From positions 1 through 39,952 of the forward strand of contig CAMDHE010000032.1 of the NCBI GenBank assembly GCA_945898095.1: a DNA stretch of 39,952 nucleotides, given 5' to 3'. The position numbers and the translations under genes were made by a program. The DNA comes from Roseateles toxinivorans (GTDB lineage Bacteria; Pseudomonadota; Gammaproteobacteria; Burkholderiales; Burkholderiaceae_C). Shown piece after piece: positions 23,262-26,998 of the stretch. The notes under the pieces were generated by a model. That model made no database searches and was not told the origin of the DNA. It worked only from the letters and a program-made list of their open reading frames with translations. How positions within the stretch are numbered: the stretch's first letter is position 1; each line of letters opens with the position of its first letter.

Positions 23262-24095
23262 TCAAAGCTTCAGGGCTTCAATCAACAGCTTTTCGCCGTC
23301 GAGCCTGACCTGGGCCGACTTGCCGAAAATCTGCGCAGGCAGCGCAGTCTCGGCAGTGCGGTAAATGCCGGCGATGGCGACCAGTTCGGCCTCCATGCTT
23401 GAGGCAAAAATGCGCGCCTCGGCATTGCCACGCGCGCCGGCAATGGCCTTGCCACGCAGCGGCGCATAGACATGGATATTGCCATCGGCGATCACCTCGG
23501 CACCATGATTGACCAAGGCCAGCACGATCAGATCGGCGTCCTTGGCATAGACCTGCTGGCCTGAGCGCAAGGGTTTGTCGATGATCATCGTTCTGGCGAC
23601 TACCGGAACTTCCACGCTGGCCTGAACCACGGGCGGGCTGCGCGGCGCTTCTGGTCGGGAAGGCGCATCGGTCTGCGGCGCGGCGGCCAAGCCGAGGGCG
23701 ATCGCTTGCTCCAGTTCGGCCGGGTTGGCACCGAGCACCGCGACCGGTTGCATCCGGTAGGCGCGCAACAACAAGATGACCGCGGCCAGATCGACATCGG
23801 CGACCCACTCGACCAGAGTCAGCTGTCCCGACTCGATGCTGACCGGCGCTGCCGCTGCCGGCCTTGCCATTTGTGTCAAATCGATCAACACCGGGTCATG
23901 GTTGAAGACCTCGGGCGTATCGCCCAGCTTGCGGCTCAATTGACCGGCCAGATCGGCCAGATCGGCAGATTTCAAGATGACTGCCAGCAGGCTCAGAGAA
24001 CTTTCTTTCAACTCGAAACCATCGTCGGACTTCTGCGCTGAACGCCCTGTTTGTGCCTGAATCATCGCTGCTGTCATTGTGCAAAAGTCGGCCAT
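23262..24095 (-). CDS. minC: Septum site-determining protein MinC
   Basis: About 277 residues. The N-terminal FtsZ-inhibiting domain starts near 'DDGFELKESSLSLLAVILKS'; after a Pro/Ala/Glu linker the C-terminal beta-helix dimerisation domain shows 'TMIIDKPLRSGQQVYAKDAD', 'LIVLALVNHGAEVIADGNIH' and 'HVYAPLRGKAIAGARGN'. The start is uncertain: I use the ATG at 24095, which has GGCGG upstream; ATGs at 24077 and 24065 also fit, and a TTG at 24146 is possible but would include a hairpin. It heads minCDE and faces the long origin-like intergenic region. Confidence 0.92.
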   Translation of the reverse strand: MADFCTMTAAMIQAQTGRSAQKSDDGFELKESSLSLLAVILKSADLADLAGQLSRKLGDTPEVFNHDPVLIDLTQMARPAAAAPVSIESGQLTLVEWVADVDLAAVILLLRAYRMQPVAVLGANPAELEQAIALGLAAAPQTDAPSRPEAPRSPPVVQASVEVPVVARTMIIDKPLRSGQQVYAKDADLIVLALVNHGAEVIADGNIHVYAPLRGKAIAGARGNAEARIFASSMEAELVAIAGIYRTAETALPAQIFGKSAQVRLDGEKLLIEALKL

Positions 24096-24127
24096 CTTAG
24101 CCGCCGGGCTCTTGAACTGAATTGGGA

Positions 24128-24143
24128 CGGGAGTTGACTCCCG
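24128..24143. repeat. Inverted repeat upstream of minC
   Basis: CGGGAGT and ACTCCCG separated by TG: a perfect 7-bp stem 32 bases upstream of the chosen minC start. It would lie in the 5' leader of the min transcript. Confidence 0.5.
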
Positions 24144-24190
24144 CAAATTCTCGAGTTAGCAACGAATGACGGACTGCGCCAAGTCGCGAC

Positions 24191-24214
24191 AGCTGTTTCA
24201 GGCTTGAAACAGCT
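24191..24214. repeat. Perfect 10-bp inverted repeat in the min leader
   Basis: AGCTGTTTCA and TGAAACAGCT flank a 4-base loop GGCT. On the minus strand it falls just downstream of the candidate min promoter, so it is either a dimeric operator or an RNA hairpin in the leader. On the plus strand it is followed by CTTTCT, but no plus-strand gene precedes it, so a terminator role is unlikely. Confidence 0.6.
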
Positions 24215-24226
24215 CTTTCTGACCTT

Positions 24227-24255
24227 GACTTATCCCCCTTTTCGATCGCCGTCAA
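24227..24255 (-). promoter_or_regulatory. Candidate sigma70 promoter for minCDE
   Basis: Minus strand: TTGACG (24255-24250), 17-base spacer, TAAGTC (24232-24227). The -35 matches five of six consensus bases; the -10 is weak. Transcription would start near 24220, immediately before the 10-bp inverted repeat. Confidence 0.4.
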
Positions 24256-24353
24256 GTCCTTTGAGAAAAAACAATTCGGGGCCCCGGAACTATTTCGCGC
24301 ATCGGGCTAAGTCGTTGATTCATATGAAGCACCTCGACATGCCTAGAAAAGAG

Positions 24354-24520
24354 GCAGATTAAGCTGGAGCGCCAATCTGCAAGGCTTTGGCGCAGGCCCC
24401 AAGCCCTTGTCCACAAAGTTATCCACAGATGCAGTGGATAGCTTTTGATTTTATTAAAATCAATGACTTAGCCGTCTTTTTTCATGTTTTTTTCAGCTTT
24501 GATCGCTAAATGAGGCTTGT
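24354..24520. other. Origin-like segment: DnaA boxes, inverted repeats, AT-rich tract
   Basis: This is the centre of a 524-bp stretch (24096-24619) with no recognised gene. It holds an inverted repeat GCAGATT/AATCTGC (24354-24360 and 24374-24380) and TTGTCCACA (24408-24416). A perfect DnaA box TTATCCACA follows at 24419-24427, then an inverted, two-mismatch box in GTGGATAGC (24433-24441). Next come a roughly 55-base AT-rich tract with a 9-bp palindrome and two T-runs, TCTTTTTTCATG and GTTTTTTTCAG. Phased DnaA boxes beside an AT-rich unwinding element are what oriC looks like. The flanking gene groups, min and metG, also diverge from this point. dnaA and dnaN are not nearby, so a secondary DnaA site is the main alternative. 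Confidence 0.5.
24445..24463. repeat. AT-rich 9-bp palindrome beside the DnaA boxes
   Basis: TTGATTTTA and TAAAATCAA separated by a single T, 17 bases from the perfect DnaA box. It could be part of an unwinding element or a site for a nucleoid or regulator protein. Confidence 0.6.
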
Positions 24521-24619
24521 CAAATCCAGCTCTGGATCGATCGCCCGAACCTCGGCTGCCGGCAGCGGTTACAGTAAACCCAATTTCGCGCACCGCGAAT
24601 ACCTTGCAGGAGCACGGCT

Positions 24620-24802
24620 TTGGCTACACCCAACTACTCATATGAAAAGCGCCAACGTGAATTGGCCAAGAAGCGCAAAACCGAAGAAAAGCGTCAGCGC
24701 AAGGTCAACAAGCCCGAGGGCGAAGTAGAGGGCGCGGAAGGCGCCGAGCCTGCCGAGGGTGAGGCTCCTGTCGAAGGCACAGCGCCTCCCCCCGCCGCCT
24801 GA
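24620..24802 (+). CDS. Small conserved basic/acidic protein, TTG start
   Basis: 60 residues from a TTG codon (24620-24622), which has AGGAG eight bases upstream. The N-terminal half 'MATPNYSYEKRQRELAKKRK' is strongly basic and helical, and resembles small proteins starting MAT-NY-YEKRQ-ELAKK found across beta- and gammaproteobacteria; their function is unknown to me. The C-terminal half is acidic and Ala/Pro/Glu-rich (EGAEGAEPAEGEAP), which I do not recall from other members. It is the first gene to the right of the origin-like region and precedes metG by 129 bp. No ATG occurs that would give the conserved opening, so TTG is well supported. Confidence 0.75.
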   Translation: MATPNYSYEKRQRELAKKRKTEEKRQRKVNKPEGEVEGAEGAEPAEGEAPVEGTAPPPAA

Positions 24803-24931
24803 AGCAATCTGCTGTCCTGAGACAAGCGCGTTCGTCGACATCGCTGCGATCCGGCTGATTCGACTGCACCGTTCAGCAGCGGGCCTGAGATAATGCGGAT
24901 CCCGGCGCGCTGCCGAGGCCGCAAAGATCAC

Positions 24932-26998
24932 ATGACCCGCAAGCTTTTCGTCACCACCGCCCTGCCCTACGCCAACGCCAATTTCCATATTGGCCACATC
25001 ATGGAATACACCCAGGCTGACATCTGGGTGCGCTTTCAGCGCATGCTTGGGCAGCAGGTGCATTTCGTCTGCGCCGACGATGCCCATGGCGCACCGATCA
25101 TGATTGCCGCTGAAAAAGTCGGCAAGACGCCGCAACAATTCGTTGCCGACATTGCGTCCGGGCGCAAAGCCTATCTCGACGGCTTCCATATCGCTTTCGA
25201 CAACTGGCATTCGACCGATGGGGTCGAGAATCACCAACTGTCGCAGGACATCTATCGGGCGCTGCGCCGCAATGAGCTGATCGAAATCAAGTCGGTCGAA
25301 CAGTTCTTCGACCCTGAAAAACAGATGTTCCTGCCTGACCGCTTCATCAAGGGTGAATGCCCGAAATGCGGCGCCAAGGATCAATACGGTGATAGCTGCG
25401 AAGCCTGCGGTGCCGTCTATACGCCGACCGAGCTGAAACAGCCTTTCTCGGTGCTGACCGGCGCCACGCCGGTGCTGAAGAGTTCGGAACATTATTTCTT
25501 CCGCCTCAGCGACACCCGCTGCATTACCTTCCTGGAAGAATGGACGCAAACGCCTGGCCGTTTGCAGCCCGAGGTGTTCAACAAGATCAAGGAATGGTTT
25601 GCCAAGGACGAAGACGGCAAAGGCGGGTTGGGCGACTGGGACATCAGCCGCGATGCGCCCTATTTCGGCATTGAAATTCCCGACGCGCCGGGCAAATATT
25701 TCTATGTCTGGCTGGATGCGCCGATCGGCTATCTGGCTTCGCTGAAGAACTACTTCGACAAGGGCGCGGCGGCGGCCAATGGCGAGCCGCGGAGCTTTGA
25801 AGAATTCCTTGCTGATGACAGCGTCGAGCAGATTCACTTCATCGGCAAGGACATCACTTATTTCCACACGTTGTTCTGGCCGGCGATGCTGCATTTCAGC
25901 GGCCGCAAGACGCCCAACCATGTCTTCGTCCACGGCTTCGTGACCGTCAACAACGGCGAGAAGATGAGCAAGAGCCGCGGCAACGGCCTGGATCCGCTCA
26001 AGTATCTGGGCCTGGGACTGAACGCCGAATGGCTGCGCTATTACCTGGCTGCCAAGCTGAACGGCAAGGTCGAAGACATCGAATTCAATGCCGACGATTT
26101 CACGGCCAGGGTGAACAGCGACCTGGTCGGCAAGTACATCAATATCGCAGCCCGCGCCGCAGGCTTTTTGAGCAAGCGTTTCGACGGCCGTTTGTCGGGC
26201 GATCTCGGCGTCGAAGGCAGGCAATTGCTGGATGCCATGCGGGCCCAGGCGCCGCTGATTGTCGAGTTGTACGAGGAACGTGAATTCGGCAAGGCCTTGC
26301 GCGAAACGATGGTGCTGGCAGACCGGGTGAATGCCTATGTCGACCAGCACAAGCCCTGGGAATTGGCCAAGCAGGAGGGCGCGGAGGCGGTGCTGCACGA
26401 TGTCTGCAGCGTCTGCATCGAGGCGTTTCGCCTGCTGACGATTTATCTGAAGCCGGTGCTGCCGGCATTGGCAGGCAAGGTCGAGAGTTTTTTGCGTATC
26501 GCGCCGCTGCAGTTCGCTGACGCCGCGCGTGCGCTCGGTGCCCACCAGATCGGCGCCTACGAGCATTTGATGCAGCGCGTCGACGCCAAACTGCTCGATC
26601 AGTTGTTTGAGCCGCCCGCCGTGGAAAAAATCAGCCCGGGCGGGGAAGACCTGGCCGCCGAGATCAAGATCGACGATTTCACCAAAGTCGACCTGCGCAT
26701 CGCGAAAATCGTTGCTGCCGAGGCGGTTGAAGGTTCTGACAAACTGCTGCGGCTGACGCTCGATGCCGGCGAGGGCCGGCTGCGCAATGTCTTCAGCGGC
26801 ATCAAGACTGCTTATGCGCCGGCCGATCTGGTCGGAAAGCTGACCTTGCTGGTGGCCAACCTGGCACCACGCAAGATGAAGTTCGGCATCAGCGAAGGCA
26901 TGGTGCTGGCTGCCAGCCATGCGGATGAAAAGGCCAATCCTGGCATCTACCTGCTCGAGCCCTTCCCGGGTGCCCAGCCGGGCATGAGGGTGCGCTAA
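24932..26998 (+). CDS. metG: Methionyl-tRNA synthetase with C-terminal tRNA-binding domain
   Basis: 688 residues. It charges tRNA-Met, including the initiator. The HIGH motif is in [12 protein letters not shown] and the KMSKS motif in [16 protein letters not shown] zinc knuckle [18 protein letters not shown] shows the four-cysteine type. From about residue 580 onward the EMAP/Trbp111-like domain ('[20 protein letters not shown]', '[11 protein letters not shown]') gives a dimeric long-form enzyme. The ATG at 24932 ([15 protein letters not shown]) is used; one at 24893 adds 13 residues without family support. The order metG-DUF3460-scpA is typical of Burkholderiales. Confidence 0.97.

Follow-up and report, generated by a model that had tools for sequence, protein, structure and literature searches.

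What is a cluster of DnaA boxes doing beside the division-site genes minCDE? The cluster lies in Roseateles toxinivorans, in a 524 bp gap (24096-24619) between minC on the minus strand and a 60-aa open reading frame and metG on the plus strand. An earlier note on this DNA read the gap as a possible chromosome origin and, failing that, as a DnaA-titrating or DnaA-regulated site. The window (the whole 39,952 bp stretch analysed) has 61.9% GC. The analysis corrects the reading of this locus as an origin. With moderate confidence, the gap is interpreted as carrying a DARS-type element, which would regenerate ATP-DnaA with IHF; the anatomy of the site, its conservation and the lack of support from GC skew for an origin here are direct observations, and binding of DnaA and IHF and the direction of the effect are predicted. 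The DARS and datA mechanisms are known mainly from E. coli.

Organisation of the min-metG gap

The gap and its flanks contain the following features.

23262-24146, minus strand: minC, left flank (TIGR01222 over cut-off)
24230-24238, plus strand: DnaA-box-like TTATCCCCC, 177 bp before the first core box (from sequence)
24308-24320, minus strand: exact IHF consensus (pattern match; TAAnnnnTTGATW on the plus strand), 99 bp before the core
24407-24415, plus strand: core box TTGTCCACA, one mismatch, in the presumed place of DARS box III (from sequence)
24419-24427, plus strand: core box TTATCCACA, perfect, in the presumed place of DARS box II (from sequence)
24433-24441, minus strand: inverted core box CTATCCACT, 5 bp past the second box, in the place of DARS box I
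24442-24503, no strand: AT-rich tract after the core (25.8% GC), containing the second IHF site
24458-24470, plus strand: second exact IHF consensus AATCAATGACTTA (pattern match), starting 51 bp past the core start
24620-24802, plus strand: 60-aa small open reading frame (MATPNYSYEKRQREL...), right flank (sequence and translation)
24893-26998, plus strand: metG (NF001100 and TIGR00398 over cut-off)

For minC, an ATG start at 24095 or 24077 is likelier than the TTG at 24146. The gene groups diverge from the gap as the earlier note described, min to the left on the minus strand and the small open reading frame and metG to the right on the plus strand. The perfect box and the inverted degenerate box are found where that note placed them, and the AT-rich tract beyond the boxes is present (25.8% GC against 61.9% in the window). 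The one-mismatch box also exists; it lies at 24407-24415, 12 bp and not 11 bp from the perfect box, start to start. Four perfect inverted repeats had been claimed. A repeat search with a minimum of 8 nt finds two perfect pairs (24191-24214 and 24445-24463) and three imperfect ones; shorter perfect stems are present in the gap, such as the 6-pair stem at 24585-24599.

The core reads TTGTCCACA-AAG-TTATCCACA-GATGC-AGTGGATAG. Its geometry is 9-3-9-5-9(inverted): the tandem boxes are 3 bp apart and the inverted box follows 5 bp on. Taken alone, the perfect 9-mer is uninformative; TTATCCACA occurs 9 times in the assembly, against 8 times for the reversed pattern. With up to 3 mismatches allowed, the window has a single match to the triple-box pattern, and none of 100 shuffles has one. 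No triad was found in 1.54 Mb of three relatives, sampled as 77 stretches of 20 kb away from known sites.

A terminator scan reports a 12-pair stem at 24415-24445 followed by T's (three terminators in the region, 1.3 expected). This stem is formed by the facing DnaA boxes themselves. No known transcript would end there because both neighbouring genes run away from it, and the chance that it is an intrinsic transcription terminator is negligible. There is no Rfam match to a structured RNA in the window, nor in 24000-24900 at E up to 1. No plasmid relatives were found.

The divergent intergenic position is also compatible with a DnaA-controlled promoter, at which the double box would tune minCDE, metG or both according to the cell-cycle level of DnaA, as at nrdA. 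According to the available text of PMC11317965, DnaA of E. coli prefers a double box with a 2-3 bp spacer, and the nrdA sequence is TTATCCACAaagTTATGCACT; the nrdA boxes are in tandem with an AAG spacer, like those of the window. The nrdA double box is a promoter element, however, and the same text mentions neither an inverted third box nor a fixed IHF pair. Promoter control alone would not explain the fixed inverted box and the two IHF sites, and the composite also precedes unrelated genes (see below). A simple scan of 24000-24950 gave no sigma-70-like promoter; with 0.4 expected in shuffles, this is weak evidence. A promoter element is quite unlikely on these grounds, and a DARS-type element remains the preferred interpretation.

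IHF sites and host factors

Neither the two IHF sites nor the box-like TTATCCCCC appeared in the earlier note. The exact IHF consensus occurs three times in the window, against 0.29 expected, and no shuffle contains three; two of the three sites flank the core boxes. In the sampled 1.54 Mb of the three relatives there are 24 exact sites. A scan for the Fis consensus found none in the window stretch scanned and no common Fis offset in 13 min sites.

The genome encodes Hda (TIGR03420 over cut-off) and IHF alpha (NF001401 over cut-off, 142.5 bits vs 111). The IHF alpha frame is narrowly below TIGR00987 (116.7 vs 120.25); IHF beta is represented by a 60-residue C-terminal piece at the edge of contig C160. 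The IHF frames of this genome passed neither TIGR00987 nor TIGR00988.

Position of the chromosome origin

Several features at min-metG are compatible with an origin: the boxes, the AT-rich tract and the IHF sites. In addition, the rpmH-dnaA interval of this genome contains a single perfect box. However, dnaA is on another contig, C39, in the usual rpmH-dnaA-dnaN-gyrB order (dnaA, dnaN and gyrB over cut-off). GC skew is negative on either side of the min site (left -0.032, right -0.029), with no sign change, and gives no support to an oriC beside min. Skew on C39 is approximately zero on both sides of dnaA, and the assembly consists of 209 contigs; placement of the origin rests on the single-contig relatives G008, G020 and G024.

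The GC-skew check proposed by the earlier note shows no switch at the site; in relatives the switch is near or around dnaA. Skew was read in 20 kb stretches in G008 (n=37), and in 20 stretches each in G020 and G024, of which G024 is coarser and noisier. In G008 the minus-to-plus switch is at 4.28-4.34 Mb, with dnaA at 4.23, the min site at 1.09 and a second copy of the element, upstream of priA, at 4.95 Mb. In G020 the switch is at 3.26-3.38 Mb, with dnaA at 3.33 and the priA site at 3.89 Mb. The noisy switch of G024 (1.2-1.74 Mb) brackets dnaA (1.52); the min site is at 3.38 and the priA site at 2.07 Mb. The switch is thus at most 0.12 Mb from dnaA in G008 and G020, and the min site is within the plus-skew arm in G008 and G024. 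A few stretches run against their arm (G008, 4.86 Mb, -0.017, and 4.02 Mb, +0.003; G020, 3.50 Mb, -0.003, and 4.15 Mb, -0.015). Strand-balanced GC3 skew was noisy and was not relied on.

The min site therefore lacks a skew switch and lies neither by dnaA nor at a conserved origin position. GC skew and the position of dnaA led to rejection of an origin at min-metG, and the gap is very probably not the chromosome origin. In addition, the min copy is restricted, among the sites read, to one genus and G024; a replication origin or second origin beside min is highly improbable. An origin at hemE-priA was also rejected, as the skew switch is about 0.5-0.6 Mb away in G008 and G020. G024 is undecided on that locus because the stretch at 2.01 Mb beside its priA site is slightly negative again (-0.006).

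Copies in related genomes

The pattern CCACAAAGTTATCCACAG (up to two mismatches) is present in 57 of 59 genomes searched, this one included; a reversed-pattern control is present in 2 of 59. The hemE-priA locus accounts for 41 of the 101 sites in the loci read, the junction of xseA with an exbB/tolQ-like gene for 29 and min-metG for 27; the other 4 are elsewhere. These classes were assigned by minC/metG, hemE/priA and xseA/exbB-like hits; hemE, priA and xseA are over cut-off and the exbB/tolQ-like protein is below every cut-off.

The core boxes are kept at min-metG across relatives, which is the conservation that the earlier note had asked for. The 27 min sites consist of 18 main copies and 9 second copies. 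The main copy is found in 17 of 18 genomes of Paucibacter/Roseateles (G000-G017) and in G024, which belongs to another genus; GTGGATAG occupies the place of the inverted box in all 18 main copies read. Eight of the nine second copies are degenerate and lie 275 bp upstream of the main core. These degenerate cores (L043, L044, L049, L129, L133, L137, L148 and L155) occur in part of the genus.

The exact min-type core is found in 38 stretches, of which 11 are at min-metG, 26 at hemE or priA and 1 is not assigned. The 11 min-metG stretches are from assemblies labelled Paucibacter, Roseateles or merely Burkholderiales. The restriction of the min copy is based on the sites read and this exact-core scan; the CCACAAAGTTATCCACAG matches were examined in part.

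The priA copy is found across Burkholderiales, upstream of priA. Doubled priA sites occur in several genera (L057, L059, L064, L065, L159 and L161). This genome contains both the min and the priA copies; its hemE-priA paralogue (L010, C143:5130-5390) has the same upstream box-like site, the IHF sites and the core. A class of triads is found in the family between xseA and the exbB/tolQ-like gene (L054, L056 and others). An xseA copy was looked for in this genome and is absent; the best triad there has 10 mismatches in 27.

For counting, sites without a perfect TTWTNCACA second box were dropped (min 27 to 19, priA 41 to 40, xseA 29 to 28), followed by redundant sites, which leaves 13 min, 37 priA and 26 xseA nonredundant sites. 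The features are distributed over these as follows.

Inverted box at exactly +5 (3 mismatches or fewer): min 12/13, priA 17/37, xseA 24/26
Inverted box at other spacings or in the other orientation, highest score: min 3/13, priA 9/37, xseA 7/26
Upstream IHF site at -101 to -95 (about -99), exact: min 13/13, priA 29/37, xseA 7/26
Upstream IHF site, one mismatch or fewer: min 13/13, priA 34/37, xseA 21/26
Second IHF site at +50 to +54, exact: min 2/13, priA 8/37
Second IHF site, one mismatch or fewer: min 12/13, priA 26/37, xseA 0/26
Upstream box TTAT[CG]C[AC]C in its interval: min 13/13, priA 32/37, xseA 0/26

The priA elements of Burkholderiales have the core, both IHF sites and the -177 box of the min element, often without a good inverted box, which is poor in 20 of the 37 sites. 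The xseA elements have the core and upstream IHF site as at min; they lack the second IHF site and the upstream box. When the priA sites are stacked without gaps, little consensus is left beyond the core, since the spacings in that region differ by a few bases. Because the sites share ancestry, the counts are not independent trials; the three gene contexts are unrelated. The anatomy of the element appears to be held by selection.

Passive titration of DnaA by a box cluster would fit the rarity of the triad (0 in the 1.54 Mb sampled) and the good binding of DnaA to tandem boxes in the available text of PMC11317965. However, titration requires neither a fixed IHF distance nor a fixed inverted box, and both are kept well beyond Burkholderiales; it is very unlikely as the function of the site. 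The earlier note's fallback of a titrating or DnaA-regulated site pointed in the right direction; the anatomy is more specifically that of a DARS-type element, present as one of several copies.

Comparison with DARS and datA of E. coli

According to the available text of PMC5742627, the DARS core consists of three boxes with equal spacing at both loci, with box I opposite to II and III. The E. coli DARS1 core is TAATACACA-TGG-TTATCCACA-GGAAT-AGTGGATAA and the DARS2 core is TTCTTCACA-ACT-CTATCCACA-GAAAA-GGTGAATAA. Of 27 box positions, 23 are identical between the window and DARS1, 21 between the window and DARS2, and 21 between DARS1 and DARS2. This supports the DARS interpretation: the 9-3-9-5-9(inverted) geometry of the window is that of DARS1 and DARS2, and no such triad is present in the E. 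coli datA stretch.

DARS1 (bioD-uvrB) shares with the window the 3-bp and 5-bp spacers and the inverted third box. It has other neighbours, and no IHF-like site (one mismatch or fewer) from -300 to +500 bp of the core start. DARS2 (rppH-mutH) has the same core geometry as the window, and both have IHF-like sites upstream of the core; in DARS2 these are two sites at -87 and -71 with 3 bp between them, whereas the window has single sites at -99 and +51. The window site thus has the triad geometry and IHF sites at conserved distances, with predicted binding and a spacing unlike that of DARS2.

DARS2 needs IHF and Fis sites, according to the available text of PMC4245941; the Fis sites are FBS2-3. 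A conserved Fis site is absent from the window element. Fis is a feature of DARS2 only and is not part of the core shared with DARS1.

In the datA stretch, the box(+)-IHF(-)-box(+) order and orientation are those of the window. The datA IHF site is at -97 from the next box (box 3, as we take the numbering to be), and the window IHF site is at -99 from the first core box (-96 to -100 across sites). The upstream box is 177 bp from the core in the window, against 162 bp in datA. However, datA has no 3/5 triad, and the two boxes on its right are in facing orientation with 3 bp between them. datA lacks the triad but has the same IHF-to-box distance and orientation, so anatomy alone is compatible with either sign of the effect.

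Chromosomal position is also relevant to datA. Measured from dnaA to the opposite point, the priA copy is at 0.04-0.31 in eight of nine genomes (0.63 in the other), comparable with datA at 0.20 from oriC. The min copy is at 0.79 in G008 and 0.70 in G024 (two genomes), and the xseA copy at 0.37-0.93 (seven genomes). These are not origin-proximal; in E. coli, DARS1 is at 0.66 and DARS2 at 0.41 from oriC. The positions invite a split of roles between copies, without proving one. The min site is non-coding and is located on the arm away from oriC, as expected of DARS. A datA-like function for it, in which IHF looping would join the upstream and core boxes, DnaA-bound ATP would be hydrolysed and initiation lowered, is unlikely in view of the triad and these positions.

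The DARS interpretation is further supported by the inverted box at +5 and the IHF site at about -99, which are held in three unrelated gene contexts, and by the genes for Hda, IHF alpha and the IHF beta piece. Other observations count against it: the inverted box is poor at many priA sites, no Fis consensus was found in the window stretch scanned, the IHF spacing is datA-like and the IHF frames miss TIGR00987 and TIGR00988.

Distribution of the signature

A wider survey used the double box with an IHF consensus within a seven-base distance window; the third box was not required. Matches occur in 90 of 369 genomes of the class, this one included, and the reversed-pattern control gives 0. The 279 genomes of the class with no match to the exact signature also count against the DARS interpretation; E. 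coli DARS2 itself would miss this signature.

The third box was read in 30 of the matching class loci. An inverted box is present at +5 in 27 of these, the window included. At the loose limit, 19 of the 30 also match at +7, presumably through a register artefact of the box. In a phylum sample, 27 of 200 genomes match, and 10 of these are among the 149 outside the class; the inverted box is present in 14 of 16 phylum loci read (L279-L294, of which L281 is the L065 already read). Most of the class and phylum loci read thus carry an inverted box that was not asked for, which argues for the DARS interpretation.

Nine of the 30 class loci are by priA (tblastn). L228 precedes uvrB (TIGR00631 over cut-off), and its core is directed away from that gene, as at E. 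coli DARS1; this is a further argument for DARS. Copies are also found beside aroE (L219) and hemW (L230), both over cut-off, and beside a CysQ-like gene below cut-off (L213); the cassette therefore occurs at many loci.

Proposed function and significance

By analogy with E. coli DARS, DnaA would bind the three boxes, two in tandem and one inverted. IHF would bend the DNA at its site 99 bp ahead of the core and probably also at the one starting 51 bp past the core start. The inverted pair of boxes would then bring ADP-DnaA molecules together head to head, and they would release ADP; apo-DnaA would leave and rebind ATP. ATP-DnaA would rise for the next initiation at the origin near dnaA. Regeneration, rather than hydrolysis, of ATP-DnaA is the outcome expected from this analogy.

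In the available text of PMC4245941 the DARS2 core is associated with gamma-proteobacteria related to E. coli. DARS-like sequences are reported from E. coli-related species (PMC4585315) and as conserved in many proteobacteria (PMC10380432), in the text available of each; the kind of element is therefore already known. Among the open-access titles and abstract starts listed, no paper on DARS in Burkholderiales was found. The paired-IHF architecture, these loci and their extent were likewise not found in those titles and abstract starts or in the passages of the papers cited.

It is conceivable, though doubtful, that DnaA recharging arose earlier, and takes a more regular form, than the E. coli picture suggests. 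In that case a standard cassette, with two tandem DnaA boxes, an inverted third and an IHF site about 98 bp ahead of them, would extend over Gammaproteobacteria (as defined in GTDB) and some other Pseudomonadota, with the ancestral copy before priA. Burkholderiales might have elaborated it into a graded circuit: origin-proximal priA copies, often lacking the inverted box, would be datA-like, and distal full-triad copies at xseA and min-metG DARS-like. The Paucibacter/Roseateles copy beside minCDE could then couple initiator recharging to replication of the division-site genes. The fixed-distance IHF site gives a searchable signature, which would make timing control by DnaA recharging testable outside enterics.

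Two further observations concern DnaA-related sequences elsewhere. L003 (C1:61733-61769 of this genome) contains two perfect opposed DnaA boxes in an AT-rich setting, 15 kb from mnmG; this is not DARS geometry. In genome G049 the Bac_DnaA model has 21 hits, with dnaA among them; many of the hits are similar frames of 266 or 279 aa, perhaps transposon helper ATPases.
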